Below, in pieces: positions 1 through 34,987 of a stretch of 64,000 nucleotides of DNA; within the stretch, counting starts at the first letter, position 1, and the number at the start of each line of letters is the position of its first letter. The notes under the pieces were generated by a model that saw only the letters and a program-made list of their open reading frames with translations, had not been told where the DNA came from and did not search any database. This DNA is from a virus, in the IMG/VR virus record IMGVR_UViG_3300010354_011858, positions 1 to 64,000 of that record. The stretch is one strand, 5' to 3'. A program made the translations under genes and the position numbers.

Positions 1-162
1 GATGACCATCAGAAGTGTTCTAACACCGAGGTCGTAGGTCGCACGGACTAACGATAGCAAAGCCGTGTCTCCACTTTCTTCTAACCTTACCATGTCTGGT
101 CTAATGACGGACAAGACCCTTTCACTCTCTGCCAGAACTTTCTCTAATTCTTCCCTAGTCAT
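1..162 (-). CDS. Hypothetical protein, 3' end cut by window edge
   Basis: An open frame runs leftward from an ATG at 162 to the window edge without a stop (54 codons). The start is preceded by a Shine-Dalgarno-like AAAGGA about six bases upstream. The peptide begins MTREELEKVLAESERVL and is charged and probably helical. It lies 19 bases downstream of the next small leftward gene, so it looks like part of one early operon. I do not recognise the family. Confidence 0.55.
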   Translation of the reverse strand, partial: MTREELEKVLAESERVLSVIRPDMVRLEESGDTALLSLVRATYDLGVRTLLMVI

Positions 163-181
163 GTCGTTATCCTTTCTTTCG

Positions 182-373
182 TTAGAGTTTCTCAATGTAA
201 CGTTCGGCAAGTTCACGGAAATCCCGTGCGCCTTCGCCTTCGGCCTTGCCGACGATAATTGCCAAGAGCAAGTATCCCCGGTCTTGTTCGGGAACTAACG
301 ATAGAAGTTCCACTACCTTGTCGGTCTCTGGATAGGTCAGAGTTTGGAATTCGAGAATGGCTTTGCGGTTCAC
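182..373 (-). CDS. Small hypothetical protein (63 aa)
   Basis: This acidic 63-residue protein starts at GTG (373), with AAAGGGAAG just upstream. The GTG overlaps the TGA stop of the gene before it (GTGA), which is a translational-coupling arrangement. The sequence (MNRKAILEFQTLTYPETDKV...) looks helical and has no cysteines or membrane segment. Its role is unknown. Operator-like TCTAACGATA motifs lie inside and around it. Confidence 0.55.
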   Translation of the reverse strand: MNRKAILEFQTLTYPETDKVVELLSLVPEQDRGYLLLAIIVGKAEGEGARDFRELAERYIEKL

Positions 374-504
374 TTGCTTCCCTTTCTAACGATACGGAGT
401 TTGCCGATGCCCCATACTTCACGGACAGTTCTAACGTAAGCCTCGCAGTCTGCGAGTTTGCCCTGATGGACAACCATACCATCGGGCCGGATTACCTGAA
501 ACAT
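370..504 (-). CDS. Small hypothetical protein (44 aa)
   Basis: A 44-codon frame starts at ATG (504) with a strong upstream GAGGAAAGGTAAGG. It ends in a TGA that overlaps the GTG of the following gene. The product begins MFQVIRPDGMVVHQGKL and ends basic (RIVRKGSK). The N-terminal pattern suggests a small beta-rich fold. The good ribosome site and stop/start coupling are the reasons for calling it. Function unknown. Confidence 0.5.
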   Translation of the reverse strand: MFQVIRPDGMVVHQGKLADCEAYVRTVREVWGIGKLRIVRKGSK

Positions 505-511
505 TAGAGCC

Positions 512-580
512 TTACCTTTCCTCGGTGACCTTCACCGATACCCATAGGGTAACCCATAGCCTACCCATGAGTCCAGTCAT
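512..580 (-). CDS. Possible leader peptide (22 aa)
   Basis: A 22-codon frame (MTGLMGRLWVTLWVSVKVTEER) begins at ATG 580 directly after GGAAGGA and stops just before the ribosome site of the 44-residue gene. It could be a leader peptide coupled to that gene or a chance frame. The Shine-Dalgarno-like sequence is almost touching the ATG, which weakens the call. Confidence 0.22.
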   Translation of the reverse strand: MTGLMGRLWVTLWVSVKVTEER

Positions 581-584
581 TCCT

Positions 585-790
585 TCCAACGTTAGAAAGT
601 TTTTTGAAATGTTAGAAGTTACCATAAAGGCTATGTCTATCGTTAGAAATGTAATAAAGTTGTAAGGTTCTCTAACGTTAGCACAGCCGGTGTTCTAACG
701 TTAAGCAGCCAACGTTAGAACACCGGCCCGTCTAACGTTAGAAGCACGGCACGAAAGAAGCCGGCCCGAAGGCCGGCTTCTAACGTTGGG
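585..790. repeat. Cluster of TCTAACGTTAGA operator-like palindromes
   Basis: Within 206 bases there are seven copies of a 12-bp palindrome with consensus TCTAACGTTAGA, each with at most two mismatches. They start at 585, 636, 671, 694, 708, 731 (exact) and 779. They lie in a gene-poor stretch upstream of the leftward genes at 1-504 and around a GC hairpin. The arrangement suggests binding sites for a phage regulator, comparable in style to repeated operators or stoperators. The protein that binds is not identified. Confidence 0.7.
757..780 (-). terminator. Rho-independent terminator hairpin
   Basis: A perfect 10-bp GC stem (GAAGCCGGCC/GGCCGGCTTC) has a 4-base loop. On the minus strand it is followed by TTTCGT. 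It lies downstream of the leftward gene ending at 898 and would end that transcript. The minus-strand T-run is short. Confidence 0.6.
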
Positions 791-897
791 CAGTTTCACG
801 ACATACCCAGGTCGGAATGGTTCTATTATTGCGAGCCTTGCCATACATTCATCAGGTAGGACCGCAGGCAGTTTATCGTCATGCCCAGGACGGTAGA

Positions 898-1158
898 TCA
901 CTCAGCCCATTCCCATCTTCCATCTTCCAACAGTCGAACGTTAGTCGGAGCCTGGCACTCGTAGACATTCACGATCTCGCCGTTGGTAGAGTTCCAGGTG
1001 AAGTCCCGCTCTAACGATACGGGGCAGAGGTTCTCATCGCTGGTGTCGATCCAGTCAGCGATCCGACTCAGACCGATGACCGCCAGAACAGCGACCACCG
1101 ACCAGAAGATCCATCTAACGATGGAGCGGGTCTGGTAGTAGGCCGGGGACTTCATCAC
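898..1158 (-). CDS. Small single-pass membrane protein
   Basis: This 86-residue protein has one clear hydrophobic segment near residues 17-33 (IFWSVVAVLAVIGLSRI). A short basic N-terminus precedes it and a hydrophilic C-terminal region with two cysteines follows, so it is probably membrane anchored. It starts at GTG 1158, overlapping the stop of the upstream gene; an in-frame ATG follows immediately at 1155. Two operator-like motifs (near 1010 and 1114) lie inside the coding region. Function unknown. Confidence 0.6.
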   Translation of the reverse strand: MMKSPAYYQTRSIVRWIFWSVVAVLAVIGLSRIADWIDTSDENLCPVSLERDFTWNSTNGEIVNVYECQAPTNVRLLEDGRWEWAE

Positions 1159-1388
1159 TCACCCCCGATCTTCAAGTCCCCGACCCGAACCCCGGCCCAG
1201 TCCCGACTGGTGTAGGTGTCGGACAACTCACGGGCGAAGAGCATGAGGGCGAAGTTGATCGCCTCGAACTTCTCCACTGTCGCCTTCTTTCCGGTGCGGT
1301 CGAAGGTGTAGATCTTCATCATGTCGTGGAGAACCTGATCGATCAGTTCACCCATTGTCTTGGTTCCATCGTTAGCAACTCGGCTCAT
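1155..1388 (-). CDS. Hypothetical early protein (77 aa)
   Basis: The start is set at ATG 1388 because AAAGGAG stands eight bases upstream; a longer in-frame start at 1415 lacks such a site. The 77-residue product (MSRVANDGTKTMGELIDQVL...) looks helical and ends in a short hydrophilic tail. It is coupled by a four-base overlap to the membrane protein downstream. Two operator-like motifs sit 76 to 108 bases upstream, suggesting repression. No family recognised. Confidence 0.65.
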   Translation of the reverse strand: MSRVANDGTKTMGELIDQVLHDMMKIYTFDRTGKKATVEKFEAINFALMLFARELSDTYTSRDWAGVRVGDLKIGGE

Positions 1389-1463
1389 TTGGAGCACTCC
1401 TTTCCTCAACCTCAAATCTACCCTCTCCCAATGGGTGAGTCAACGACCGAACCATTGGTTTTT

Positions 1464-1630
1464 TCTATCGTTATAAGAAATTTTTGTATCGTTAGAATCG
1501 CATAATAAAGCCGGGAGATCCTCTAACGTTAGAACAACTGGAGTGCAAGGCGGGGGTCATCGCCTTTTGCACTCCAGCCGCCGGCTCTAACGTTAGGCCG
1601 CATAAAGGTATTAAATTTCCTAACGTTAGA
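1464..1630. repeat. Second cluster of operator-like palindromes
   Basis: Five copies of the TCTAACGTTAGA-type motif start at 1464, 1485, 1522 (exact), 1586 and 1619. They lie in the intergenic stretch between the leftward genes ending at 1686 and starting at 1388. This region and the one near 620-660 share a minus-strand layout of CTTTATTA followed a few bases later by TTCTAACGATA, so the motif probably overlaps promoters. Confidence 0.65.
1538..1577. terminator. Long hairpin, probable terminator
   Basis: Bases 1538-1552 pair with 1561-1577 in a stem of about 15 bp with a two-base bulge and an 8-base loop. No long T-run follows on either strand, so it may be a terminator or an RNA structural element. 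It lies between the gene ending at 1686 and the operator cluster. Confidence 0.4.
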
Positions 1631-1652
1631 GACCATGCCTACCGTGGTGTGC

Positions 1653-1678
1653 GCCCTGACCGCCGAAGCGGTCAGGGC
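1653..1678. terminator. GC hairpin after the gene ending at 1686
   Basis: A perfect 11-bp stem GCCCTGACCGC/GCGGTCAGGGC with loop CGAA stands seven bases beyond the stop of the leftward gene. There is no T-run on the minus strand, so termination is inferred from position and stability only. Confidence 0.4.
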
Positions 1679-1685
1679 TTGGCTC

Positions 1686-2084
1686 TCACCAACCGCTCGG
1701 GGCTTCACCCTTCGTCACGGTTCCTACGGGAACGAGGTACGCCGTACCAACCGTAGCGGTCGTGGTGAAGTGACCGCCGTACACGGCGCATACGGTAATG
1801 CTCTCCCATTGCTCCTGCGAGAGAGCCGAACGCATGGCTCTCCATGCACGGTTGTAAACGGGAGACTCACCCTCGATGTTGGGGAGAGCGATAGCGTGAC
1901 CACGCTCGGCGCAGAAGTAGCAAGCGAGCAGAACGGCGAGCCGTTCCCAATTGGTACGGTTGGAACCTACGCCGTTCTCACGGTAGTAGGTGACGAGCTC
2001 GGACGCTGCACGAACGTCCGAAGCGGTCGGGGTGGATAGGGTCATGGGTTGGTTCCGCTGAGCGGTCACCTTCTTCGTTGCCAT
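1686..2084 (-). CDS. Hypothetical protein, paralogue of the gene at 2541-2954
   Basis: This 132-residue protein starts at ATG 2084; no clear ribosome site is visible. It shares with the product of 2541-2954 the pattern SNRxNxxRxAxVLA in its middle and Y-x-x-A-x-R-A-x-x-x-x-L-x-x-x-x-W further on. The two therefore look like diverged copies of one family. Nothing indicates an enzyme. Codon use is GC-rich compared with genes beyond 3.1 kb. Confidence 0.65.
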   Translation of the reverse strand: MATKKVTAQRNQPMTLSTPTASDVRAASELVTYYRENGVGSNRTNWERLAVLLACYFCAERGHAIALPNIEGESPVYNRAWRAMRSALSQEQWESITVCAVYGGHFTTTATVGTAYLVPVGTVTKGEAPSGW

Positions 2085-2160
2085 AAGTGAGAGACTAATC
2101 GAAACATTAGAGCAATGCAAGTCAATTGTAATTGCAGATGCAACGACATAAAGACTTGCT

Positions 2161-2172
2161 TCTATCGTTAGA
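2161..2172. promoter_or_regulatory. Operator-like site TCTATCGTTAGA
   Basis: A one-mismatch copy of the palindromic motif lies 77 bases upstream of the leftward start at 2084. A further copy with two mismatches is at 3007-3018, 53 bases upstream of the start at 2954. Both paralogous genes therefore have one such site in front. Confidence 0.5.
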
Positions 2173-2298
2173 AAATGGTATGCGCACCGAGCTGCATGAC
2201 CATGCATTCGTATGCATACTCAATCATTGCAGCATACAGCTATCGCCCCAGCGGGCGTGCGGGTGCGGGGATATTATACCCGCACGCCCGTCCACAGG

Positions 2299-2437
2299 TT
2301 TTCCACAGGCTGTGGATAACCCATGTGGACAGGCTGTGGATAAACTGGCGGGGTTGTGGATAAACCCTGTGGATAATGTGGTTGTCCACATGATGTGGAT
2401 AATGTGTGGGTAAAGGTGTTGATAAAGGTGTGGATAA
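2299..2437. other. DnaA-box array, probable replication origin
   Basis: Six exact copies of TGTGGATAA (complement of the DnaA box TTATCCACA) start at 2311, 2335, 2355, 2368, 2394 and 2429. Near copies are at 2405 and 2417. Opposite-strand matches to TTWTNCACA are at 2299, with a near match at 2382. Such density is typical of bacterial oriC regions and DnaA-dependent plasmid origins. The array fills most of the gene-free stretch 2208-2540. I see no obvious long AT-rich unwinding element next to it. Confidence 0.7.
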
Positions 2438-2502
2438 AGGTGTGCTCAAATCACGGTCCCCGGACCGGAACACCATGCCAGCCGCAGCTGGGGAACGGCA
2501 AA

Positions 2503-2528
2503 GGGCCGGGGACTTTCGCCCCCGGCCC
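2503..2528 (-). terminator. Terminator after the gene ending at 2541
   Basis: A perfect 9-bp stem GGGCCGGGG/CCCCGGCCC with an 8-base loop stands 13 bases past the leftward stop. On the minus strand it is followed by TTTGCC. Confidence 0.55.
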
Positions 2529-2540
2529 CCGGCCTGCCGG

Positions 2541-2954
2541 TCATTCTGCCGGTGCGATGAACAGCCGGACCCGGCCCACCTTGGCGGTGGTGCTTGTCTC
2601 GCCGGTGATGGTGGTCTTGGCGATGGTCACGGTGTCGGTGATCATCGGCACGATCCGAACCTTGTGCCAGTTCGGACGAACCAGGTCGGCAGACAGGGCA
2701 CGGTGTGCCAGGTGGTAGGCCGGTGCTGTCTGGGCCTTGCCGGTGGTCGGGTCGGTGGCAGGGAACAGGTCGGTGATCTCAACAGCCTGCCCGGTCTTGG
2801 TGACGGTGAGAACCCCGGCGAGAACCCCGGCCATGCGAGACAGGTTCGCCCTGTTGGAAAGCAGGCCATCGGCCTTGGCCTTGGCGACGATCTCGCCGGC
2901 CTGCTTTGCCAAGGCCGGTGAGACCTTGGCGACGGTGACGGTGGTGGTGGTCAT
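2541..2954 (-). CDS. Hypothetical protein, paralogue of the gene at 1686-2084
   Basis: The start at ATG 2954 is chosen because AAAGGAC stands seven bases upstream; the frame continues further upstream without a better site. The 137-residue product opens with a Thr/Val-rich stretch and then AKVSPALAKQAGEIVAKAK. It carries the SNRxNxxRxAxVLA motif shared with the 1686-2084 product. The C-terminal half is Thr/Val-rich and probably beta. It lies directly next to the DnaA-box array, which makes a replication or copy-control role possible, but nothing in the sequence shows it. Confidence 0.65.
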   Translation of the reverse strand: MTTTTVTVAKVSPALAKQAGEIVAKAKADGLLSNRANLSRMAGVLAGVLTVTKTGQAVEITDLFPATDPTTGKAQTAPAYHLAHRALSADLVRPNWHKVRIVPMITDTVTIAKTTITGETSTTAKVGRVRLFIAPAE

Positions 2955-3142
2955 TGTCTGTCCTTTCGTGTTCGGCGTGTTTGCCATGTCTCTATTCAAC
3001 CAACTCTCAAACGATAGATCAACCACCTCTTTTGACCCCCCTACATAACCCCTGGTCAGAGGCCGAATTTTCAAGCCTTACCATGATCGGATATATACTC
3101 AATTTTTTTTAAAAAGTGAGAGAATGCACCTTGGGGGGATTC

Positions 3143-3775
3143 TTAGAGATGGGGCGGCCAAAAGTCGGGGAGAAGACCACGGTATATCGGTCCACTAGGA
3201 GGTTCCCAGTCATCGATATCACAATGCGGGGTTGTAGAAGAGTGTTGTTCCCAAGATGTAGAGATCTTAGTTTGCGTCCAAGATGGGGGAAAGGCTTGGG
3301 TCTTGTTAAAATTCGGGGTTAAGGTTTCTTCAGGCCTAGATACGCTAATAATCGATATATTCGATGTTAATAATAGATCTACACAGTCTGACCATTGTTC
3401 ATAGGCGGGGTCTACATAATGTACCAGTCTAGTGACTCCAGATGACGCTATTAACTTACTACATCCATAGCAGGGGGGTCCATTGACAATGAGCGTTCCT
3501 CCTTGCCTAGCATAACTATCTGAATACAATAATGCATTAGCTTCTGCATGATTAGCTATACAATTATCGTAGGTAGATCCATGTGGGGAGTTTGAATGTA
3601 ACCGTGGGCATGCTCCCTGGTCGCAATGGGCGTGACCGGGCGGTGACCCGTTATAACCAAATCCTACAACCCGGCTATTAGGTGCGAGGACAAATGCTGC
3701 ATACTTTCTCTTATCGCATGTCGAAAAGATCTGAGCCATCTGATCGCATGCTGCAAGCCATTTCTCATTTTTCAT
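3143..3775 (-). CDS. Deoxycytidylate (dCMP) deaminase-like protein
   Basis: This is a zinc-dependent deaminase expected to convert dCMP to dUMP, feeding dTMP synthesis with the encoded ThyX. The zinc site is visible as HAEAN (His76, Glu78) and PPCYGC (Cys102, Cys105); a FGYNGSPPG substrate loop lies near residue 39. An extra insert with His and Cys residues between these fits the family's second zinc. The last 60 or so residues are Pro/Ser/Trp-rich and not part of the catalytic fold. The start at 3775 overlaps the upstream gene by 11 bases; an alternative ATG is at 3787. Ribosome sites are weak for both. Confidence 0.8.
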   Translation of the reverse strand: MKNEKWLAACDQMAQIFSTCDKRKYAAFVLAPNSRVVGFGYNGSPPGHAHCDQGACPRLHSNSPHGSTYDNCIANHAEANALLYSDSYARQGGTLIVNGPPCYGCSKLIASSGVTRLVHYVDPAYEQWSDCVDLLLTSNISIISVSRPEETLTPNFNKTQAFPPSWTQTKISTSWEQHSSTTPHCDIDDWEPPSGPIYRGLLPDFWPPHL

Positions 3776-4013
3776 CTCTTTGGCCATATCCTCGTACAAT
3801 ATGATACATGTCGTTTCCGTATCGGAGCATGCCACGACATTGATATTTCACAAACCCTAATATGCTGGGCTTATAGTCTTTTTTCGGTCCCACGAGGGGC
3901 GCACCTTCGTAACCACACTGCCCCGTGCCCTCATATGAGCACTGAGAGTCCCATGGTGTCATATCATAGATATCGCAATGAGGTTGACCGCAAGGGATTG
4001 ATTCCTCAACCAT
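3765..4013 (-). CDS. Small Cys-containing hypothetical protein
   Basis: This 82-residue frame starts at ATG 4013, eight bases inside the end of the previous gene, and ends inside the start of the deaminase. The N-terminal half has five cysteines in CGQPHC, QCSYEGTGQCGY and a later KYQC, compatible with metal binding. The close packing with both neighbours supports it as a gene. Function unknown. Confidence 0.45.
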   Translation of the reverse strand: MVEESIPCGQPHCDIYDMTPWDSQCSYEGTGQCGYEGAPLVGPKKDYKPSILGFVKYQCRGMLRYGNDMYHIVRGYGQRDEK

Positions 4014-4215
4014 TACCCCGGACCTTATCCCATTCGTCTAGAGCATCATCCCAACGCCCGGTACGGATGCCCTGGGCTAGGGCATCACCTGCTTTCCATA
4101 ATCTTTCAATCTCATCTGCCGTATCGAACATCAAAATTTCCCATTCCCTATTATCGGTTGGCAATTCTTGAATAACATATTTACGAAGTAACTTGGGGAT
4201 ATTCTCTGTTGTCAT
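4006..4215 (-). CDS. Small helical hypothetical protein
   Basis: This 69-residue acidic protein is predicted helical (MTTENIPKLLRKYVIQELP...). Its ATG overlaps the stop of the P450 gene upstream (TAATG), so the two are translationally coupled. I see no redox motif, so it is not a ferredoxin partner for the P450. Function unknown. Confidence 0.6.
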   Translation of the reverse strand: MTTENIPKLLRKYVIQELPTDNREWEILMFDTADEIERLWKAGDALAQGIRTGRWDDALDEWDKVRGNG

Positions 4216-5309
4216 TATTCAAACCTTAGTGGTAATTTTTTCGGTCCACGGACCTGGCCGACGCTCCATTCTACCTCACCGTCAAGAGAAAACTTCGGGT
4301 GCTTTTTGATAAATTCCTGGATGGCGACTTTCAATTCTAACTTACCCAGGTGAGCGCCAAGACAACGGTGAATACCCAGTCCAAAAGCGATGTGCTTGTT
4401 ATTTTTCCTATCGATAATAAACTCTTCGGGGTTCTCGAAGTGGTCAGGGTCACGATTTGCAGCGTTTAGCGGAATCAGGATCCACTGATTCTTCTTCATT
4501 TCGTATCCATGGAAGTTATAGTCTTCTTTTACTAACCGTGCTGTCGATACACCAGAGTGCATTCTTAATAACTCTTCTACCGCCGAATCAATGAGCTCAG
4601 GGTTATCTTGAAGTTTCTGTAGGTCATCCGGATGTGTAGCCAAATAGTGCAAACTATTGCCTATCGTGTACCAAGTTGTGTCAATGCTACCAATTGTCAG
4701 GAGCATTATCATACCCTGCAATTGCTCTCTTGAATAAGATCCGGCATTAATTAAGAAAGTTAATAAATTATCACCAGGGACATGGTTGTCAATTTGCTGA
4801 CCAACGTAGTCCATATAGACCATGATCTTCTCAAGGCTCTTCTCCGGTTCTAAATTGATATTCTCAAAGATGTCCGGGACCGCCGAACTAAAGAAGTCTG
4901 GATCGAATCCAAGCATGCCTGACATGGATTGTAGGGCGACATACAGACCGTAATCTGAGCCATCCGTGCCATCCCATGACTGACATATCCCTCTCAGTCG
5001 ATCTTCTAGTTTCTCCACCTCTTTGAAAGAGAATGGAGGCTGAACACGCTGTCTTGCCTCAAAGTGATAAGGAGGATCAGCGGTAATAGGGGGTGCACCA
5101 CCGCCAGGCATGTCAGGCGGAAGATCATTGCTTACCATGACACCACGATTACTAAAATGATCAGTGTCAAGCAAGATCTCTTTTATATATTCATATGTTA
5201 AAGGCATCCATGTGCCCCCATAGTTTTCTGTAAAACCCATGGGGTGGAAATCCTGCCAGTATTGTCTTATATTTTTATTAAAGTCAGGATTTGCGTGATC
5301 GAATGCCAT
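4215..5309 (-). CDS. Cytochrome P450 monooxygenase (P450-1)
   Basis: This is a soluble bacterial-type P450 of 364 residues, slightly shorter than the usual 400 or so. The heme-binding loop FGLGIHRCLG is canonical, with the thiolate Cys316. The ExxR motif is present (EELLR), and the I-helix segment TIGSIDTTW keeps the acidic-alcohol pair (Asp-Thr) needed for oxygen activation. No ferredoxin or reductase is visible nearby, so electrons would have to come from the host. The gene ends in a TAATG overlap with its downstream neighbour. Its base composition is less AT-rich than P450-2 and P450-3, suggesting a separate origin. Substrate unknown. Confidence 0.93.
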   Translation of the reverse strand: MAFDHANPDFNKNIRQYWQDFHPMGFTENYGGTWMPLTYEYIKEILLDTDHFSNRGVMVSNDLPPDMPGGGAPPITADPPYHFEARQRVQPPFSFKEVEKLEDRLRGICQSWDGTDGSDYGLYVALQSMSGMLGFDPDFFSSAVPDIFENINLEPEKSLEKIMVYMDYVGQQIDNHVPGDNLLTFLINAGSYSREQLQGMIMLLTIGSIDTTWYTIGNSLHYLATHPDDLQKLQDNPELIDSAVEELLRMHSGVSTARLVKEDYNFHGYEMKKNQWILIPLNAANRDPDHFENPEEFIIDRKNNKHIAFGLGIHRCLGAHLGKLELKVAIQEFIKKHPKFSLDGEVEWSVGQVRGPKKLPLRFE

Positions 5310-5313
5310 ATAT

Positions 5314-5958
5314 CTATTCTACATCATCAATGGCTAAATTAACCTTATTAGGCGACATGGGCGTAAGAAATTTATTCTTATATCTCTCGTCCTCATCAAG
5401 AATCATCAGGGCAATTGTAGAATATCCAATAATATCAATTAATGTATCAACAACTGTCTCACCGCCAACAGAGTTAGCCTGAATTGCTGATCTTAAATCA
5501 TAATTAGACTTCTCTATTAGATTATTAAGTCTGGCAATCTTATCAAACATTCTAACTATGATGCCGATTAGACCAAAACGCATAATATTCTCAGGACCAT
5601 AATCTTTTTGTTTTCTAATTAAAATATCGCTGATATAGTTCCAGTCAATATAATAATACATATCTAACTCTTCAATAATATATATTGCATAGCCGGCTAT
5701 ATCAAAAAATAGGGGATTGTCATCAACAGAGTTGATTATATTTTTAGTTAATGGCTTACTAAGCCCCTCTGTCTGATCTACAAGATAGTTGACCATCGCA
5801 TTAATCTGCTCAACTGGATATACATCTGTCATGTGAGTTGGATTGCTATACCACTGATAGTAATGGTCATAGATTTCCTTAACTTGCTGTTGGCAAACGT
5901 CTTCCCAGAAATAATCAACGTGTGAACTTCTCATATCAATATCTTCCATCATATCCAT
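5314..5958 (-). CDS. DUF1599 / nucleotide-modification-associated domain protein
   Basis: The C-terminal half (about residues 110-190) matches the pattern of the DUF1599 (Nmad1) family: KQKDYGPENIMRFG, then VRMFDKIARLNNL, then DTLIDIIGYSTIA. That family occurs in phages and is linked by genome context to modified-nucleotide metabolism. The N-terminal half is rich in Tyr and acidic residues and is unassigned. The start overlaps the upstream gene by 23 bases; an in-frame Met three codons later is also possible. Confidence 0.65.
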   Translation of the reverse strand: MDMMEDIDMRSSHVDYFWEDVCQQQVKEIYDHYYQWYSNPTHMTDVYPVEQINAMVNYLVDQTEGLSKPLTKNIINSVDDNPLFFDIAGYAIYIIEELDMYYYIDWNYISDILIRKQKDYGPENIMRFGLIGIIVRMFDKIARLNNLIEKSNYDLRSAIQANSVGGETVVDTLIDIIGYSTIALMILDEDERYKNKFLTPMSPNKVNLAIDDVE

Positions 5959-6457
5959 GTTTATTAATTCTATCTACCGAACTTTCAAAAGTTGAATACC
6001 CCTGGACCCCGTAAGATTCAACAATTCTATTGTAGAAATTAAATATACATATAACTGCAATTGCATCTTTTACCTCGTCTTTCGTCCAACCATCACTGTA
6101 GCATGTTTGAATATCATCATCACTAACAGATGGGGGATTTTGTGTAATTTTTTCTGCTAATTTAAATATAGAATAATATTTATTAGAATATGATTCTATT
6201 GTAAATTTATTATCAAAATTATTACTTAATGATTTAGTAAATTCTAAATGAGATTTATAACAAAAATCACAGTTATTTAATTTAGAAGTATATGTAGCAA
6301 TTATTTCTCTATCTAGTGGTGTCAAATAAGACTCTTCACGAAGAATTTCTTGGGCCATCGACAAAGCATTTGAATACATTTTTTTTCTATCATTAAATAT
6401 ATCGATAATACTAGATGGATTTCTATTGTTTGATAATAGACGACTATCTCTAGTCAC
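5936..6457 (-). CDS. AhpD-like / carboxymuconolactone decarboxylase family protein
   Basis: The motif NCDFCYKSH (Cys63, Cys66, His70), preceded by TPLDREIIATYTSKL, is the redox-active CxxCxxxH signature of AhpD-like peroxidase-related proteins. These are all-helical. The family includes alkylhydroperoxide reductases and proteins of unknown role. The 173-residue length fits. It may protect against peroxides generated by uncoupled P450 turnover, but that link is only context. It overlaps both neighbours by a few bases, so it belongs to the same leftward operon. Confidence 0.75.
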   Translation of the reverse strand: MTRDSRLLSNNRNPSSIIDIFNDRKKMYSNALSMAQEILREESYLTPLDREIIATYTSKLNNCDFCYKSHLEFTKSLSNNFDNKFTIESYSNKYYSIFKLAEKITQNPPSVSDDDIQTCYSDGWTKDEVKDAIAVICIFNFYNRIVESYGVQGYSTFESSVDRINKHGYDGRY

Positions 6458-6822
6458 ATTCCCATCCCTTCAAGTGCTTGGCTTATAAGACATTCATAAC
6501 AGAACGCCTTTAACCATCCAGATTTTGTTTTACGAATTTCTGATTTACCACCACAACTTTCACATATATTCTTAGAAAGAGTTTCTGCTTGTGCAACATA
6601 TCGCTGCATAGCTTCTTTAACTGCGCTTTGTGTTACTTCTGTTGTGTAATAGTATCTAAGTGATCCAAACTTTTCTTTAATTTGAATAATTTTATAATCC
6701 GGATCGAGCATTACTAATTTTTTATGTAAGTCTATAATTAAGTCATGCCAACCGTTACCTGGCAGGTAGTTGTCATGTGTCATTCTATTCTTAATATCTT
6801 CTAAGTAGTTAATGCTATTCAT
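6454..6822 (-). CDS. Zinc-ribbon phage protein of unknown function
   Basis: This 122-residue protein carries IKEKFGSLRYYY near residue 48, followed by CESCGG and, after a Trp-containing segment, CYEC, so four cysteines can bind zinc. This combination recurs in small phage and bacterial proteins without known function. It overlaps the next gene upstream by eight bases and the next one downstream by four. Confidence 0.65.
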   Translation of the reverse strand: MNSINYLEDIKNRMTHDNYLPGNGWHDLIIDLHKKLVMLDPDYKIIQIKEKFGSLRYYYTTEVTQSAVKEAMQRYVAQAETLSKNICESCGGKSEIRKTKSGWLKAFCYECLISQALEGMGM

Positions 6823-7582
6823 TAATTATCTCCATATCAATTTTTTTTTGATTCTTTTTATATAAGCCTTTAGTTTTTATAGATTTAAATAATTTACCAA
6901 AACTTTGGTGCCATAAAACTATATAAACAGAATCATCTCCAAGTAAAAATTTTAAATTTTTTTTTCTTTTAAATGGAATAATTTGTATTAATGGATCTTG
7001 AAAAGATATTTTAAAATCTTCTTTTATAAGTGGATTTATTACAATATTAATGTGGTGATAAGAATCCGTATTTATTACACCTGGCATTACTTCATATTCT
7101 TTTTTAGAATTCCAACTTACAGGAAGAATCAAACACGACCAGCCTTTTGGAGTTTTTATTGTCCATGGTGTAATTAATTTAATAAAGTTTGTTTTTTCTA
7201 GGTATCTTTTTTTAGTAACTGGACATGATCCTACTTGATCATAATCAAATGTTTCAATACCAAAGTTACCCTGCTGTGTGTTTAAATCATAAAAATGATT
7301 CCATGAATCACCTTCAAGAAAGAATTCAATGTCTGCCCACATAGGCATTGTATAGCCAAGCTTTAAATAATCCAAAACACCAGAACATGTACTTAAGGTT
7401 CCTTCGCCCCTTTTTAAATTGTTCCACCATTCTGGCAGTTTTTTGTTATTGTCAATTGGGAGTACACTGTTAGATATCATAAACATTGATTGTGGTGCAA
7501 ATACTATTGAATTTTTTAATTTAAAATTTTCTACGTCCATCGGAGTGGAAGCTCTAATTATTTTTTTATTTTTAAAAAACAT
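6815..7582 (-). CDS. Hypothetical protein, 255 aa
   Basis: I do not recognise this protein with certainty. It has a conserved-looking Trp/Pro-rich core (LPEWWNNLKRGEG, GYTMPMWADIEF, CPVTKKRY, LITPWTIKTPKGWSCL) and a Lys-rich C-terminus. It resembles phage proteins found near Fe/2OG oxygenases and halogenases, but I cannot name the fold. The gene is very AT-rich, like P450-2 and P450-3. It lies between the SDR gene (two bases upstream) and the zinc-ribbon gene. Confidence 0.6.
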   Translation of the reverse strand: MFFKNKKIIRASTPMDVENFKLKNSIVFAPQSMFMISNSVLPIDNNKKLPEWWNNLKRGEGTLSTCSGVLDYLKLGYTMPMWADIEFFLEGDSWNHFYDLNTQQGNFGIETFDYDQVGSCPVTKKRYLEKTNFIKLITPWTIKTPKGWSCLILPVSWNSKKEYEVMPGVINTDSYHHINIVINPLIKEDFKISFQDPLIQIIPFKRKKNLKFLLGDDSVYIVLWHQSFGKLFKSIKTKGLYKKNQKKIDMEIINE

Positions 7583-7584
7583 AA

Positions 7585-8322
7585 CTATAATGATCCTCCA
7601 CGATCAATATTAAATATTGCACCAGTAATATTCTTACATGGATCACTAGCAATATATAAATACATTTCAGCAACATCTTGAACTGGGATTAATTCATCTA
7701 TAAATCTAGTTAAGAGATTGAAGTCGGCATTATCAGGGAGTTTTTGTTTATCAATAAAAGGAGTTTGTACTCCACCAGGCGATACTGCATTAACTCTTAT
7801 ATTATTCTTTTTATACTCATATGCTAGTTCTTTTGTTAATCCAACAACGCCTGCTTTACTAGCAACATACGCAGCACTCCATGGCAAAACAGTATTATAT
7901 GCTAATGAAGTCGTATTGATAATACATCCATAATTTTGATTTATCATAAATGGAAGAGTATACCTAGATGTATAAAAAGAACCATTTAAGTTAGTAGATA
8001 TAATATTATCAAATTCATGTGGAGTTTGAAGATGAGTGTGCTGCATGGAATTAATTCCTGCTGTATTGATGAGTACATCAACTTTACCCATCTCTGCAAC
8101 TGAGAAGCGGATTGAATCTTCTACTGCAACATAGTCCTTCACATCGCACTTTACTGCGAATGAATTGGGTCCGGCAAGTCTTACTGTTTCTTGTGCGTTC
8201 TCAATCGTTTTGCTTAAACAAGCAACGGTCGCACCAGCATTTGCAAATTTTATAGCAACCTCACGACCAATACCTGTCCCTGATCCAGAAATAATGACAG
8301 CAGATCCAGCAAAATCACGCAT
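7585..8322 (-). CDS. Short-chain dehydrogenase/reductase (SDR)
   Basis: This is a classical NAD(P)-dependent SDR of 245 residues, the usual length. The cofactor motif GSGTGIG is at residues 13-19, NTAG at 86-89, the catalytic Ser139, and YVASK with Tyr152 and Lys156. The PGGVQTPF segment follows. It probably interconverts an alcohol and a ketone. Its place in the block with three P450s and a CoA ligase suggests it works on the product of a hydroxylation, as SDRs do in lipid and terpenoid pathways. FabG-like and steroid dehydrogenases share these motifs, so the substrate cannot be read from the sequence. Confidence 0.9.
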   Translation of the reverse strand: MRDFAGSAVIISGSGTGIGREVAIKFANAGATVACLSKTIENAQETVRLAGPNSFAVKCDVKDYVAVEDSIRFSVAEMGKVDVLINTAGINSMQHTHLQTPHEFDNIISTNLNGSFYTSRYTLPFMINQNYGCIINTTSLAYNTVLPWSAAYVASKAGVVGLTKELAYEYKKNNIRVNAVSPGGVQTPFIDKQKLPDNADFNLLTRFIDELIPVQDVAEMYLYIASDPCKNITGAIFNIDRGGSL

Positions 8323-8746
8323 TAAACTTTGCTTCTCTTCTCTGCTGTTGTGGATCTATAATCTCGTATGTTCCTCTGCTAACTTTCTTAAAGAAACCTC
8401 TATTTGCATTAATATAATTATACAAAGTAGGTGTAGTAATCTCACACATTTCAATTATTTCATTAGACTTAAGTGTTTTGCCAATATTCTGTTTAATAAA
8501 AGCATCAAGTTTAGATGTCTTAGCACCACGCTTCTTTTTCTCAACAGGCCTAACTTCTGAGAAGTTGAAATAGTCCCACCATTTATTGGATAATTCGTGT
8601 GAGAGGGAATAGTATGAAGTAATTTGGCTTAGAGTTTTGCCATCTCTAACACCAATAACAATGGAGCAGGCTGTTCTACGGTCTTCTTGGCTTATTTGTT
8701 TTGGAAGATTTTGTATTAGATTTTCTGCTTGAACCGGATTTAACAT
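8315..8746 (-). CDS. Putative winged-helix/HTH regulator
   Basis: This basic 143-residue protein has a C-terminal segment SNEIIEMCEITTPTLYNYI that reads like a helix-turn-helix. It is followed by GFFKKVSRGTYEI, like a wing. The middle contains a KKKRGAKTSK linker. It overlaps the preceding gene by 71 bases and the SDR gene by eight. It could regulate this block; no partner sites were identified. Confidence 0.5.
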   Translation of the reverse strand: MLNPVQAENLIQNLPKQISQEDRRTACSIVIGVRDGKTLSQITSYYSLSHELSNKWWDYFNFSEVRPVEKKKRGAKTSKLDAFIKQNIGKTLKSNEIIEMCEITTPTLYNYINANRGFFKKVSRGTYEIIDPQQQRREAKFNA

Positions 8747-9053
8747 TTAATGGTTTACCTTTCGTTTTTGTTGGTCTTCTAACCTCATCAAGGATAGCGT
8801 CTGCCTCCGTATACTTACGGAAGTTTAGCACACAGTTCTTCAAAACGGCGGATCCAGCAGAATATTTTTGCGAATCTAATTCGTATGTGCAGGCGATATA
8901 ATAGTAATCATCATCTTCTGCAACTAAGTATCCAACGGCACTTAAAATACACATTGTTTGAGGCGTTCCAATATCATACCAGTCATCATCAATACTGAAA
9001 TGATCTTCCCAAAAGACCTCAACAAGGGGCGGAAGCGGCGGGTATTTATTCAT
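8676..9053 (-). CDS. Hypothetical protein with basic tail
   Basis: The start is at ATG 9053, where GGAGGAAT stands immediately upstream; an in-frame Met at 9083 has no such site. Residues 1-80 look beta-rich (VEVFWEDHFSIDDDWYDIG..., VGYLVAEDDDYYYIA), a pattern common to small phage proteins of unknown role. The last 35 residues are Lys/Ser/Arg-rich, suggesting nucleic acid contact. The 71-base overlap with the next gene is unusually long. Confidence 0.6.
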   Translation of the reverse strand: MNKYPPLPPLVEVFWEDHFSIDDDWYDIGTPQTMCILSAVGYLVAEDDDYYYIACTYELDSQKYSAGSAVLKNCVLNFRKYTEADAILDEVRRPTKTKGKPLNVKSGSSRKSNTKSSKTNKPRRP

Positions 9054-9180
9054 TATTCCTCCAATAAGCAGAGCAGCCCCCACACCATAAATAAACTTTC
9101 GTAATACTTACAGCCAGGAACTGCCCTGCCAAAGATAGTATAACATCAATTCTGTATTTTCATCATATATATTTATTATA

Positions 9181-10323
9181 TTATTTAATATATTGACCGT
9201 ATATTGATTCAATTAGAGAGCCAGTTAAATTTCTTTCTTCTCTATATTGAATAGAATCGATACTAATATTTTTATAGTTATCAATCATATAATTTAAGAA
9301 GCAATTTAATTGTAAAATTGCTGTCTGAAAGCCGATGCATCTATACATGCCGTGACCAAATACTAAATTTGTTTTTTTATAATTTCTATATATATTAAAA
9401 TCTTTAGTGTGTTTACCAAATTTTGTTTCATCAAAATTAGCACTGCCTAATAAAAATGCAACAATATCACCCTTCTTAATATTTTTATTATGCAGTATGT
9501 GATCCGATGATGCAACTCTAATCAGATTAGTTTGTATAAAACTATATCTAAGTGTTTCTTGTATAAAATTATTTGATAGTTTTTTATTTTTAATGACATC
9601 AAGAAAATAATTATTATATTGATATATATTATTTAAAAAATTTGGGAATGTACCAGTTAATGAGCTTGATCCACCAAGCATCATTCCCATACAAAATGAT
9701 ATTGCTACATCCCTATCTCTACAGTTTGATACAAGAGGAGGAGGATTATTAATTATAAACTTATATGCGTTTTTGCATATATCTATTCTTTCTTGAATAC
9801 TTGCCCGTTTCATTAAACTACTGGTAATCTGGAAAACATCGTCGGCCATCTCGTGATCGTATCCCATGAGATCGCATATTGTTAACAGTGGTATTCGATT
9901 TGTTACTGTTTTTACTAAGTCCACGGGGCCAATATTTTCTATATTAGAAAAGATTTTATTAATATTTAAATTAATTTTTGACTCTAAATCACCGGCTATT
10001 GCGGAATGGTAGATATCTAATAATTTTTTTCTATGAATTGTATACTCAGGTGGCAACTGTATCTGAAAGAACTGTCTGTCCTTGTCAGATAGTAGTTCCG
10101 GATTATTTGTCATACATGTTAAATCTCTTATAACAATTGAATCGGTGGTATCATAAGTGTATAATTCATGGTTAGCCAAGCCATTAATTACATCTTGATA
10201 TCTACTAATAATCCAAGCTCTGTGATGATCGCTCCAATACACTGGCTCATATTTTCTAAGATCAGAATAAAGATTTAATAAATCTTCCTTCGGTGTTTTG
10301 TTAGTAAAGTTAAAATTTATCAT
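9181..10323 (-). CDS. Atypical cytochrome P450 (P450-2)
   Basis: This 380-residue P450-like protein has the heme loop FGHGMYRCIG with Cys329, and ExxR as ETLR. Two catalytic features are altered. The residue normally His or Arg two before the Cys is Tyr, and the I-helix reads GGSSSLTG, without the acidic-alcohol pair. It may be an altered monooxygenase, a peroxygenase or a substrate-presenting P450. The start is placed at ATG 10323, just after the stop of P450-3, with AAAGAG upstream; ATG 10341 is an alternative. The coding sequence is about 30 percent GC, with runs of Asn, Ile and Lys. Confidence 0.85.
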   Translation of the reverse strand: MINFNFTNKTPKEDLLNLYSDLRKYEPVYWSDHHRAWIISRYQDVINGLANHELYTYDTTDSIVIRDLTCMTNNPELLSDKDRQFFQIQLPPEYTIHRKKLLDIYHSAIAGDLESKINLNINKIFSNIENIGPVDLVKTVTNRIPLLTICDLMGYDHEMADDVFQITSSLMKRASIQERIDICKNAYKFIINNPPPLVSNCRDRDVAISFCMGMMLGGSSSLTGTFPNFLNNIYQYNNYFLDVIKNKKLSNNFIQETLRYSFIQTNLIRVASSDHILHNKNIKKGDIVAFLLGSANFDETKFGKHTKDFNIYRNYKKTNLVFGHGMYRCIGFQTAILQLNCFLNYMIDNYKNISIDSIQYREERNLTGSLIESIYGQYIK

Positions 10324-10327
10324 ATAT

Positions 10328-11467
10328 TTACTCTTTATCATTCCCTAGAAATCTCATATGTAGACTATCCCACATCATACCTGAGAGGTCGGCTTTGTTT
10401 CTTAGGACACCGGAAATTATTTCAAAGTTTGGAGATATTTCAACAATTGATTCGAGTATAGATGTCATTTCTAATCTAGCAAGCCTCTGGCCGGGACATG
10501 TGTGTGGACCGTATCCAAAAGCAAAGTTATGCTTATTAATCTCTCTATTAATTAAAAACTCATCAGGACTATCTTTTATAAATTCTTCATCAAATCCAGC
10601 AGATGCAGTTAAAAATAACACGGTATCTCCTGCTCGTATAAATTTATTATTTAATACATGATCAACTGTTGCTGTTCTTATAACAAATTGGGATAAATAT
10701 CTATGTCTTAGTGATTCTTCTACAAAAAGAGGAATAAGTTCGTTATTATTTAATATTCTATAATATTCTTCTGGATGTTTCTTGCAGTTATAGACTAGAT
10801 TTGCTAGTTCAGCAGAAATAGTTTCATAGCCGGCAATTGCAATTGATGTACAGAGTGTGCCAATAACTTTTTTTGTCAAATTTACATTTGAAAACTCTTT
10901 TTCTGCAATTTCTATAACCAAGCCTGGTGGATTCTTATAAAAAAATCCGGCCAAGTTCATTACAGCTTCTTTTTGCTCCTCCTTTGAGGAGAGATCAAAT
11001 AATTTCTTTGCTTGTTCTTTTATAAACTCTAAATGATCTTTATCTATTCCAAATATATCAAATATTACATATATAGGAAATAACATAAATAAACTATTTA
11101 TTATATCAATATCTTTATTTAAAATAGATTTTAATTCATTTGAAAAATTATTTTTTATTTTTAATTTTAATTCTTCACTAACCTGGCTTGAAATAATTCT
11201 ATTAATAATTTTTCTAAATTCAGTATGGGCCGGCGGGTCTAGTTCATAGAATGGTAGATTGTCATATAGTTCAGACCTTTTTGTTTCAAGGGTAGTTCCA
11301 TAATTTGCAGTATATTTACTATAGTCACGCAAACAAGATACAACATCTGTATATTTAGATACTATCCAAATTTTATGTTCATCATTCCAATGACATCCAT
11401 CTAAATGTCTTAGAAGTTTGTATTTTTTATAATTATCAAATGTAACTTCATATGGGTCGTAAATCAT
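10328..11467 (-). CDS. Cytochrome P450 (P450-3)
   Basis: This P450 of 379 residues has intact signatures: FGYGPHTCPG with Cys324, ESLR for ExxR, and the canonical I-helix AGYETI. It should therefore activate oxygen normally if given a redox partner. It resembles P450-2 over the N-terminal region (W-x-D/E-x-H-x-x-W-I-x-S-x-Y), and both are extremely AT-rich, pointing to an old duplication or joint acquisition. The start at 11467 overlaps the end of the CoA ligase gene by 20 bases; the longer in-frame start at 11509 has no better ribosome site. Confidence 0.92.
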   Translation of the reverse strand: MIYDPYEVTFDNYKKYKLLRHLDGCHWNDEHKIWIVSKYTDVVSCLRDYSKYTANYGTTLETKRSELYDNLPFYELDPPAHTEFRKIINRIISSQVSEELKLKIKNNFSNELKSILNKDIDIINSLFMLFPIYVIFDIFGIDKDHLEFIKEQAKKLFDLSSKEEQKEAVMNLAGFFYKNPPGLVIEIAEKEFSNVNLTKKVIGTLCTSIAIAGYETISAELANLVYNCKKHPEEYYRILNNNELIPLFVEESLRHRYLSQFVIRTATVDHVLNNKFIRAGDTVLFLTASAGFDEEFIKDSPDEFLINREINKHNFAFGYGPHTCPGQRLARLEMTSILESIVEISPNFEIISGVLRNKADLSGMMWDSLHMRFLGNDKE

Positions 11468-12989
11468 ACAATTCTTTAATTTTTTTATAATCAATTTTAC
11501 CAATTTCATTCCTTGGTATTAAATTTGATTTAATAAATTCTTTTGGAATCTTATAGTCAGCAAGATAATTTAAACAGAATTTTTTTAAACTAGCAAAGTC
11601 TATCTCTGTATCACAATTTATAACACAAGTTACTTGCTGACCCCATCTATCGTGGTGTTTACCTATTACAACTGCATCAGTGACTCCTGGGTACGACTTT
11701 ATTACTTCTTCAACTTCCTCTGGGTAAACCTTTTCTCCGCCAGTATTAATGCAATTGTTGTCTCTTCCAAGCAGAACAAGTTCACCAGATTCTGTTATAT
11801 ACCCAAGATCACCAGGTATACACCATCTCTTATCGTCAATTTCTTTAAATACCATATTCGTCTTTAGCGAATCACTGTAATAGCCAATTGGTAAATGACC
11901 GGTTTTAGCAATTTTACCAATAATGTTACAATCAACCTTATTATAATTATCGTCTACAATAATAGTATCTTCTGGAGATACAAAGGATGAGTCATTCACT
12001 TTAGCAACAACACCGCCTATTTCTGATCCGCCATATACATCCATTACCGAAATATGTGGAAGCAATTCAATTAATTTCTTTTTGTTTATTTCTGATAAAA
12101 ATGCTCCACCGTTATTAATAGAAAACAAATTTTTAAGATTATATGTATTCTTGCTTAATTCATCAATTAATGTTATTGCCATTCCGTCGCCAATTATACT
12201 CATTGAGTTTGCTTCGGATTTCTCTGCAAGGGATAAGCAGTGGTAGCCAGTAAATGTTTTATTTGTATACATGATATATGTAGCACCTAATACTAAAGCA
12301 CTACCCATTACCCATTGACCAGATGCATGCATCATTGGTGTTGTACACATTATTTTTGGAATAAATTGTTTGTTTAAACATTCAAGAGACAATTCTTTTA
12401 CTGAGTCAATTGGAGCATTATTTCTACCCTTATTCATAGCTGCAAGAATGAGATCTTCTTGCCTCCATACAACACCCTTTGGCATGCCAGTCGTACCACC
12501 GGTATATGTTATATATATGTCATCTCCTGATCTTTTTTCAAAGTTTCTTTGGCATCCAAATGATCTGACTGAGTTTTCATAGATCGACTCAAACTTACCA
12601 ACCCATTTTAATTTTGGTAAGTTTGAATATATTGAATACACATCATCATAAAATTCATCAGATACTAGTGTTGCAACAACATTAGCATTGTTATATAAAT
12701 ATAATAATTCATTTTTAGAATATCTATAATTTATATTAATGGGTACTGCTCGTATTTTCAAGCAAGCATAAAATGCATAAATCCATTCAATTCTATTTCT
12801 TGAATGAATAGCAATATGATCACCATAGCCAAATCCACAACTTTTTAAAAAGTTTGCAAGCCTTGTTGCTTCATTATCGATATATCCATAGGTATAAACA
12901 CAATCATCGGTGATAACAGCAATTCGATCACCAAATGTATCTGCATGGGATTCTAAAATATCCGCTAAATTAATTGAACCGTCACTCAT
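11448..12989 (-). CDS. Acyl-CoA synthetase-type AMP-forming ligase
   Basis: This 513-residue enzyme of the ANL superfamily activates a carboxylate with ATP, usually to the CoA thioester. All main motifs are intact: the P-loop YTGGTTGMPKG (162-172), YGGSEIGG, GDLGY, GRDNNCINTGGEKVYP, and the catalytic Lys498 in NEIGKIDYK. The N-terminal and C-terminal domains are both complete. It is the first gene of a leftward operon with P450-3 and P450-2. It is closest in character to fatty-acid/sterol-side-chain CoA ligases (FadD type), but substrate choice cannot be deduced. Confidence 0.92.
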   Translation of the reverse strand: MSDGSINLADILESHADTFGDRIAVITDDCVYTYGYIDNEATRLANFLKSCGFGYGDHIAIHSRNRIEWIYAFYACLKIRAVPININYRYSKNELLYLYNNANVVATLVSDEFYDDVYSIYSNLPKLKWVGKFESIYENSVRSFGCQRNFEKRSGDDIYITYTGGTTGMPKGVVWRQEDLILAAMNKGRNNAPIDSVKELSLECLNKQFIPKIMCTTPMMHASGQWVMGSALVLGATYIMYTNKTFTGYHCLSLAEKSEANSMSIIGDGMAITLIDELSKNTYNLKNLFSINNGGAFLSEINKKKLIELLPHISVMDVYGGSEIGGVVAKVNDSSFVSPEDTIIVDDNYNKVDCNIIGKIAKTGHLPIGYYSDSLKTNMVFKEIDDKRWCIPGDLGYITESGELVLLGRDNNCINTGGEKVYPEEVEEVIKSYPGVTDAVVIGKHHDRWGQQVTCVINCDTEIDFASLKKFCLNYLADYKIPKEFIKSNLIPRNEIGKIDYKKIKELYDLRPI

Positions 12990-19951: not shown

Positions 19952-20607
19952 ACACAATATGTTTAATAACATATCAAAGAAGTGGTAGCACAATACTTAG
20001 ATATTTGTTAAATTGTTTTAATGATGTTTTTATTTCAATGGAGAATAATGGATTAGTAGTAAATTTGCTTGATTATTCATTGAATATTCAAGCAATGAAT
20101 TCTATTATAAATTATAGTAATGACGGAGATTTATTAGATACAAAAAGTTTTGGAATAAATCTAAATATAGATAACTTACAAAATGATATTAGAAATCTTT
20201 TAAATAATTCTTTTTTAAATTCTAATTATAAAATTAAAGGATGGAAAGAATTTAATATCTCACCATTTGTAGCAAATGAAAATAAATGCAATGTTTATTT
20301 AAATGAAATTAAATCTATTTATCAAAATTGCTTAATGATCTTTAATATTAGAGATCCATTGTCTACATCAAAAAGTGGTTTTTGGAAAACAATACCTAAT
20401 TCCTCAATTGTTATTGAAAAAAATAATAATTTTTTTTATGAATACTATTCTTATAACAAGGAAAAATCAATATTTTTAGACTTTAATACTTGGTCAAATA
20501 ATGAAAATGAATTAATTAATATTATGAAAAGTTATAATATTGATGTAAATTATGAATTATATAAAAAAAATTTTAATACTAAATTAAATCATTTAAAAGA
20601 TTGGTGA
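19936..20607 (+). CDS. Sulfotransferase-like P-loop protein
   Basis: The N-terminal TYQRSGSTILRYLL (residues 12-25) is the 5'-phosphosulfate-binding loop of PAPS-dependent sulfotransferases. NIRDPLSTSKSGFW at about 135-148 matches the 3'-phosphate motif. The 223-residue length is short for the family, and the C-terminus is very Asn-rich. It overlaps the reductase gene by 16 bases. A PAPS source is suggested by the APS kinase domain encoded at 43361. The acceptor could be a glycan, protein or small molecule. Confidence 0.75.
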   Translation: MPDKIDTICLITYQRSGSTILRYLLNCFNDVFISMENNGLVVNLLDYSLNIQAMNSIINYSNDGDLLDTKSFGINLNIDNLQNDIRNLLNNSFLNSNYKIKGWKEFNISPFVANENKCNVYLNEIKSIYQNCLMIFNIRDPLSTSKSGFWKTIPNSSIVIEKNNNFFYEYYSYNKEKSIFLDFNTWSNNENELINIMKSYNIDVNYELYKKNFNTKLNHLKDW

Positions 20608-34388: not shown

Positions 34389-34987
34389 GATGTATAAATA
34401 ATATATTTTTTATCTTTTTTATTTTTCTGGGGGAATCCGATGAACTCTCTTTCATCATATTTTAAATTTGAAAATTTACCATATTTATTGACATAGTGTA
34501 GAAATACTTGAATGTGGTATTCATTATCTAAACAGTTTAGAGTATTTCTCCAATGAGATAGTTCGCATCCCTTGTACACAGCCATATCACCGCTACATAG
34601 ATATATCGGTTCCCCGTCAATGAAAAGTTCCCAGGGGTCACCAGGGTAATTATAATCTAGAGCCAAAGTCGCAGAGATCTCACAAGATTCTCGGTCCAAG
34701 TGTCTTCTGAGATATTGCCCATTGCGGTATATCCTATAATATGAATATGTAGGATATAATTCTAATCCAGTATGTTGTTCAATAACAGGCTGCATTTTTA
34801 ATAATAATGACTCCATCAGGGGATCAGCGTAAGATGAATGCGCATCAGCTACCTGGGGGTCTCCCGGTGAAAAATTAGATAATTCATCAAAAATGGCATA
34901 TTGACTAACTAACTGTACAAAATCTTTATCTAGAGCTGATTTTATAATCGTATATTTATTTTTTTCAAAGTTGTTTATTGTATCCAT
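34385..34987 (-). CDS. Fe(II)/2-oxoglutarate oxygenase-like protein (1)
   Basis: This 200-residue protein has a facial-triad pattern: His96 and Asp98 in RRHLDRE, and a distal His145 in ELSHWR followed by basic residues. Upstream, YPTYSYYRIYRNGQYL matches the strand before the first His in prolyl-hydroxylase-like enzymes. It probably hydroxylates a protein side chain or small molecule. It overlaps both the halogenase and the second oxygenase gene. Confidence 0.75.
   Translation of the reverse strand: MDTINNFEKNKYTIIKSALDKDFVQLVSQYAIFDELSNFSPGDPQVADAHSSYADPLMESLLLKMQPVIEQHTGLELYPTYSYYRIYRNGQYLRRHLDRESCEISATLALDYNYPGDPWELFIDGEPIYLCSGDMAVYKGCELSHWRNTLNCLDNEYHIQVFLHYVNKYGKFSNLKYDEREFIGFPQKNKKDKKYIIYTS

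Follow-up and report, generated by a model that had tools for sequence, protein, structure and literature searches.

Few oxidising enzymes are as versatile as the cytochromes P450, iron-haem proteins that act on oily molecules, and from phages only isolated examples were known before. Here we analyse the first 64 kb (64,000 nucleotides, hereafter the window) of the 70,341-bp viral record IMGVR_UViG_3300010354_011858, in which exactly three P450 genes, all complete and the only ones in the whole record, lie among conserved phage genes together with a short-chain dehydrogenase/reductase (SDR) and an AMP-forming ligase. With moderate confidence, we read them as parts of an actinobacteriophage's auxiliary metabolic module, organised around soluble, class-I-like P450s of a phage lineage that would oxidise a hydrophobic molecule; it appears that some phages enter the host cell equipped with oxidative chemistry of their own. 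An earlier note on this DNA had pointed to the three P450s with haem-cysteine motifs, the ligase and the SDR, and all five open reading frames (ORFs) are indeed complete and lie where it placed them.

Related records were gathered through a scan of IMG/VR for the class-II-type ribonucleotide reductase (RNR), which gave 79 loci, and P450s were sought in the parent records of all of them (50 plus 29, the 29 being mostly short fragments, and most related records being fragments). They are present in only one of the 79, IMGVR_UViG_3300036770_003780 (35,385 bp; hereafter G002), which has three in tandem and whose RNR is 92% identical to that of the window phage. In the direction of transcription, all on the minus strand, the window presents a conserved phage gene (13034..13264), the ligase (11448..12989, 513 aa), P450-3 (10328..11509, 393 aa), P450-2 (9181..10341, 386 aa), two conserved phage genes (8676..9083, with 36-89% in relatives, and 8315..8746), the SDR (7585..8322, 245 aa), a phrog_7084 protein (6815..7582, 255 aa), a phage gene with zinc-ribbon-like cysteine pairs (6454..6822), an AhpD-like gene (5936..6457), a conserved phage gene (5314..5958, phrog_1485), P450-1 (4215..5309, 364 aa) and, further on, a dCMP deaminase (3143..3835, phrog_174) that is conserved in relatives and ends the syntenic block. 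In G002, the counterpart of the 13034 gene is followed by P450a, P450b and P450c, the 8676 and 8315 genes, the SDR, phrog_7084, a 65-aa ORF, the 6454 and 5314 genes and, further on, the dCMP deaminase.

By comparison with relatives, the 13034 and 8676 genes are, in the order of transcription, the left and right flanks of the P450 array, and the 8315 and 6454 genes are those of the SDR and phrog_7084 pair. In six related records (G004, G005, G028, G032, G034 and G044, of which G004 and G005 apparently represent one virus) the 13034 gene directly adjoins the 8676 gene, and no SDR or phrog_7084 gene comes after the 8315 gene. Because these six have empty sites, the array and the pair represent two insertions, each at a fixed site of a conserved phage block; the SDR is also absent by profile from nine other related records. 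P450-1 and the AhpD-like gene, the latter not found in G002, are further insertions, unique to the window phage among those compared. The conserved core is the P450 array with the SDR and phrog_7084, since these are common to both carriers, and the ligase, which lies within the array insertion, and P450-1 are optional. With viral genes on their flanks and empty sites in relatives, the insertions have the genomic setting of a phage auxiliary metabolic module, and their genes are phage-encoded, as the earlier note had proposed.

What does not survive is the notion of a single five-gene cassette. The genes are all leftward within 9 kb, as described, but the shared strand is not special to them, because everything in this unit, between about 16.5 and 3.1 kb, is leftward. 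The coupling holds only at ligase/P450-3, which overlap by 62 nt (20 nt if the next ATG, at 11467, is used), and at P450-3/P450-2, which overlap by 14 nt; the SDR shares 8 nt with a phage gene, and P450-1 starts after a 4-nt gap behind a phage gene. The five genes form three insertions, and six others lie between them; these six, which include several conserved phage genes as well as the AhpD-like, dUTPase-fold (phrog_7084) and zinc-ribbon-like genes, had been overlooked. As to the co-occurrence in related phages proposed as a check, P450s and SDR stand together in G002, but the ligase and P450-1 do not stand with them. A scan for promoters and terminators gave a result no better than shuffles. 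An anti-phage defence system was rejected, since PADLOC defence models had no match among the ten proteins of the unit.

Protein identity between the two carriers ranges from 27 to 64% (SDR, 64%; phrog_7084, 61%; P450-2/P450b, 46%; P450-3/P450a, 34%), yet the reading frames are intact and the catalytic residues mostly so, which suggests that selection has maintained the genes. Two carriers only are known. Scanned singly against IMG/VR, P450-3, P450-1 and the ligase gave no matches, and alignment-profile scans gave G002 and one weak SDR match for the array P450s and the SDR, and nothing for P450-1; these scans use short peptide patterns of limited sensitivity, by which diverged P450s can be missed. 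Furthermore, three P450 queries, an ordinary bacterial one included, had no matches in 50,697 phage records, in agreement with the claim that P450s are rare in phages.

At the level of sequence, all three window proteins exceed the PF00067 cut-off of 22.8 bits (P450-1, 102.4; P450-2, 45.7; P450-3, 76.9), and for P450-1 and P450-3 the fold is assigned from this match only. The haem-thiolate loop FGxGxxxCxG is found in the three of them (FGLGIHRCLG, FGHGMYRCIG and FGYGPHTCPG in P450-1, P450-2 and P450-3, respectively) and likewise in the three G002 P450s, of which one has CxA. The ExxR motif and the haem cysteine are kept in all six phage P450s, three from each carrier, and E261 and R264 of helix K are invariant in an 18-row P450 alignment. 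An AlphaFold2 model of P450-2 (pLDDT 84.9, pTM 0.86) folds confidently as a P450, which bears in part on the structural check suggested beforehand: compared with the PDB, it has more than 1,600 matches at E<=0.001, and P450s throughout among the matches listed. The nearest solved folds are CYP109, CYP106, CYP134 and CREJ, with CYP125 and CYP153 lower in the list (TM scores of 0.72-0.79), soluble P450s whose substrates include steroids, fatty acids, terpenoids, alkylphenols and diketopiperazines.

The P450s of the window do not share one history. In a phylogenetic tree, P450-2, P450-3 and the three G002 P450s form one clade (support 100/100); the tree holds few bacterial P450s and phage rows of odd composition, so that the good support for the clade extends no further than the sequences compared. 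In the same tree, P450-1 groups with a P450 of Nonomuraea (100/100; 38.7% identity) whose gene adjoins aldehyde and alcohol dehydrogenase genes, and its best solved relative is P450cin (E=9e-41). Its GC content at third codon positions (GC3) is 0.45, against 0.19-0.23. By its different place in the tree and its different GC3, P450-1 is of separate origin from the array P450s, and it was probably acquired later than the array.

This mixed origin brings in the alternative that the genes are independent cargo, that is, separate metabolic genes lodged in two or three permissive sites and joined by no common pathway. The three separate insertion points, the GC3 and phylogenetic home of P450-1 and the missing ligase of G002 all agree with it, as does the presence of other unrelated cargo in the record, a halogenase and a 2-oxoglutarate (2OG) oxygenase. 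We nevertheless hold it unlikely, since the two carriers both have P450-2, a P450-3-like gene, the SDR and phrog_7084, arranged in one shared order, and none of these was seen in the six relatives with empty sites.

Regarding the enzymes that accompany the P450s, the ligase is of the acyl-CoA-synthetase type, with both AMP-binding domains (PF00501, 148.8 bits; PF13193, 37 bits) and the motifs YTGGTTGMPKG, GDLG and C-terminal NEIGK, so that the P-loop and the C-terminal lysine are in place. It scores 506 bits against the acyl-CoA synthetases of NF005863, just short of the cut-off of 543, and its best plasmid match is from Rhodococcus (36%). Steroid side-chain catabolism was rejected as a specific assignment, given 181 bits against a cut-off of 750 for the steroid-24-oyl-CoA synthetase family NF052580; CYP125-type matches appear only amid many distant P450s. 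The ligase's bacterial relatives in Croceicoccus (with a P450, a 2Fe-2S ferredoxin and acyl-CoA dehydrogenases) and Mycobacterium branderi (with a P450, a ferredoxin, SDRs and NDMA-dependent alcohol dehydrogenases) lie in clusters that bear out in part the idea that bacterial pathways combine these classes: P450 and ferredoxin accompany the ligase in both, and SDRs in one only. Ligase matches in phage records are mostly unannotated fragments that resemble bacterial DNA, and they were not used as phage relatives. Several records filed as phage, such as OR846883, OR848481 and CAKLQH020000001, carry metabolic genes of ordinary bacterial kind (fatty-acid CoA ligases, SDRs) and look like host DNA.

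The SDR is a classical oxidoreductase (PF13561, 167.7 bits) with the glycine-rich stretch SGSGTGIG and the residues N110-S138-Y151-K155, the N-S-Y-K set being conserved with the SDR of G002. Its neighbour, the phrog_7084 protein (103 bits to that family), has dUTPase-fold similarity (PF00692, 26.1 bits; cut-off, 22). Motif III of dUTPases is GVIDxD, and the phage protein reads GVINTD at this position; because asparagine takes the place of the motif III aspartate, the protein is unlikely to be a dUTPase of the ordinary kind. Besides G002, its viral relatives are remote only, including haloarchaeal viruses and cyanophages, and a search of 397 actinobacterial genomes, run without a positive control, gave no matches. 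The AhpD/carboxymuconolactone-decarboxylase-like protein carries CxxCxxxH (PF02627, 26.2 bits), scores 61 bits with TIGR01926, below the cut-off of 81.8, and its PDB matches are peroxidase-related proteins.

A different product could also be envisaged, in which the module would produce or modify a small bioactive compound of peptide, amino-acid or polyketide-like type, and would not use or change a host lipid. Biosynthetic clusters often contain P450 arrays, which speaks for this option, and so do the presence of CYP134/CypX among the best folds, the flavin-dependent halogenase elsewhere in the genome, and the best NCBIfam score of both P450-2 and P450-3, obtained with a cyclodipeptide-synthase-associated P450 family though far below its cut-off. 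We regard it as rather improbable, since the ligase groups with acyl-CoA synthetases and no carrier protein, non-ribosomal peptide synthetase, polyketide synthase, cyclodipeptide synthase or terpene synthase was recognised among the annotated genes, the search having covered part of the ORFs.

The I-helix raises a question of chemistry. P450-3 has the canonical AGYET, and in P450-1 (GSIDTT) the acid-alcohol pair is present; Ser or Asn stands in place of the acid in P450-2 (GGSSS) and its G002 orthologue P450b (GGSNS), the acid is lost in P450a (SGAKT), and P450c appears to be without the pair. These P450s could be monooxygenases that relay protons by a different route, could catalyse a different type of reaction, or could serve as haem-binding proteins. 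It has to be considered, then, whether the P450-2 clade binds haem for some role other than monooxygenation, for instance in nitric-oxide or peroxide handling with the AhpD-like protein. Such departures in four of the six phage P450s, an AhpD-like gene within the same leftward unit and the lack of an encoded ferredoxin or flavodoxin by motif scan would be consistent with this. Nevertheless, the I-helices of P450-3 and P450-1 are canonical, the AhpD-like gene is not in G002, and P450cin and EryF are working P450s that depart from the pair, all of which makes this very unlikely. Finally, that the contig is a phage/bacterial chimera with P450s that are not viral, as the variation of GC along the record might suggest, is excluded for practical purposes on synteny with G002, where the same arrangement recurs with diverged sequences and GC likewise goes up past the dCMP deaminase, the P450s sitting between conserved phage genes.

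Returning to the module as an oxidative pathway of an actinobacteriophage, the host deserves attention. A WhiB-family protein is encoded at 64910-65155 of the record, beyond the window (PF02467, 46.8 bits), and others in G002 and G034; to our knowledge, this family is otherwise confined to actinobacteria and their phages. The best isolates for the capsid protein are Streptomyces phages (51%). Because of both features, the host is probably an actinobacterium. WhiB genes are carried by phages of aquatic actinobacteria (PMC7771536, PMC10205998), and a low-GC aquatic actinobacterium is likely.

In such a host, haem of the cell would load the phage P450s during infection. As the earlier note had stated, no ferredoxin is apparent: no ferredoxin or flavodoxin motif was found in the ORFs of at least 40 aa of the record and PF00258 (flavodoxin) is without a match in it, reductases not having been searched by profile. 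Because of this, we propose that electrons would be supplied by a ferredoxin and reductase of the host. The P450s would then oxidise, by hydroxylation or in another way, a hydrophobic compound of the terpenoid, steroid or fatty-acid type from the host or the environment, the SDR would interconvert the resulting alcohol and ketone and, in the window phage, the ligase would activate a carboxylate as acyl-AMP/acyl-CoA. The product might serve as fuel, as a changed lipid of the envelope or as a signal. The scheme follows the logic of actinobacterial P450-SDR-ligase catabolic clusters and, judging from the protein families, oxidative processing followed by redox and acid activation would be the most economical reading.

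Several facts weigh against this scheme. The only other carrier, G002, was searched for the ligase and P450-1 and has neither, and the absence of redox-partner motifs already mentioned counts here as well. Within the clade, the I-helix acid is lost in three of the five members, P450c either is canonical or has no pair, and only P450-3 is clearly canonical. The phrog_7084 protein, whose predicted model reaches a pLDDT of only 36, has no assigned part in the scheme. Moreover, identity to characterised enzymes is low; therefore the substrate inference is weak and none can be named responsibly.

A bolder proposal, which we advance tentatively and with more doubt than conviction, is that duplication within a lineage of aquatic actinobacteriophages gave rise to a P450 family of its own, part of it with an altered proton-relay site, and that the lineage uses this family with the SDR and the dUTPase-fold protein in an undescribed pathway by which a small molecule is made or remodelled during infection. 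More generally, a diverged P450 array that a phage lineage keeps with an SDR at fixed sites would mean that viruses are able to subject actinobacteria to oxidative chemistry on lipids or secondary metabolites, and the array would also supply compact, soluble P450s with an unusual active site.

Other features stand out along the record. At 1-3100, left of the dCMP deaminase, GC rises to 52-61%; since G002 shows a similar rise at its corresponding end, this looks like a real variable region and not a join error. Within the structural gene region, 32946-35607 (minus strand) holds a flavin-dependent gene of the tryptophan-halogenase family (PF04820, 270 bits) and two small genes, one of them a 2OG-Fe(II) oxygenase (PF13640); in G002 both small genes are kept and the halogenase is absent. 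The 'ferrochelatase' PHROG labels at 34385-35607 (minus strand) were rejected as a haem supply, PF00762 being absent from the record; the gene at 34385-34987 (minus strand) is without any Pfam match and neighbours the 2OG oxygenase, and its label probably misnames a family of oxygenase-like proteins. A sulfotransferase-like gene at 19936-20607 (plus strand; weak PF13469, 20% GC) overlaps the end of the RNR gene and has a 38% homologue in G002, and the gene at 43361-44107 (plus strand, phrog_10255) joins an APS-kinase-like N-terminal half to a nucleotidyltransferase-like C-terminal half.

Among characterised enzymes, P450cin (CYP176A1) shares ENYGG-like and IHRCLGAHL stretches with P450-1, which differs from it in the I-helix (GSIDTT against GGIDNT) and in that no gene for a flavodoxin of the cindoxin type was found. 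The usual threshold for one CYP family is 40% identity, and the two align below it, so that P450-1 falls outside CYP176. CYP109, CYP106 and CYP134, the closest solved folds of P450-2, are also among the best sequence matches of P450-2 and P450-3; identity over the fold is only about 18-20%, and P450-2 is without their I-helix acid. The cluster on the M. branderi plasmid pJCM12687 has P450, ferredoxin, SDR and acyl-CoA synthetase genes side by side, the same enzyme classes; in contrast, the phage version is split over separate insertions and has no ferredoxin and no alcohol/aldehyde or acyl-CoA dehydrogenases among its recognised genes.

In the literature searched, which left out most subscription journals, no description of a phage P450 array was found. 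Phage P450s as such are not unprecedented, because two single cases exist. Mycobacterium phage Adler carries CYP102L1, reported as host-derived (PMC9405906, PMC11814380; citing Lamb et al. 2019); as in the window phage, this is a P450 in an actinobacterial phage with no separate phage redox partner described. Adler is said there to have a single CYP102-type gene from its host M. abscessus, whereas the window phage has three stand-alone P450s with an SDR and a ligase, two of the P450s belonging to a phage-lineage clade for which no close bacterial relative was found. The second case, A0A6J5NCR8, a 'CypX cytochrome P450' of an uncultured Caudovirales phage in BFVD, is of similar length and is the best viral fold match of P450-2 (TM 0.74, E 1.6e-14), but it is only 18% identical, and no array is known for it. 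Phage auxiliary metabolic genes at cargo hot spots likewise are variable metabolic genes set between conserved phage genes. Single phage P450s being already known, what appears to be new here is a lineage-specific module of P450 array and SDR at a conserved site.

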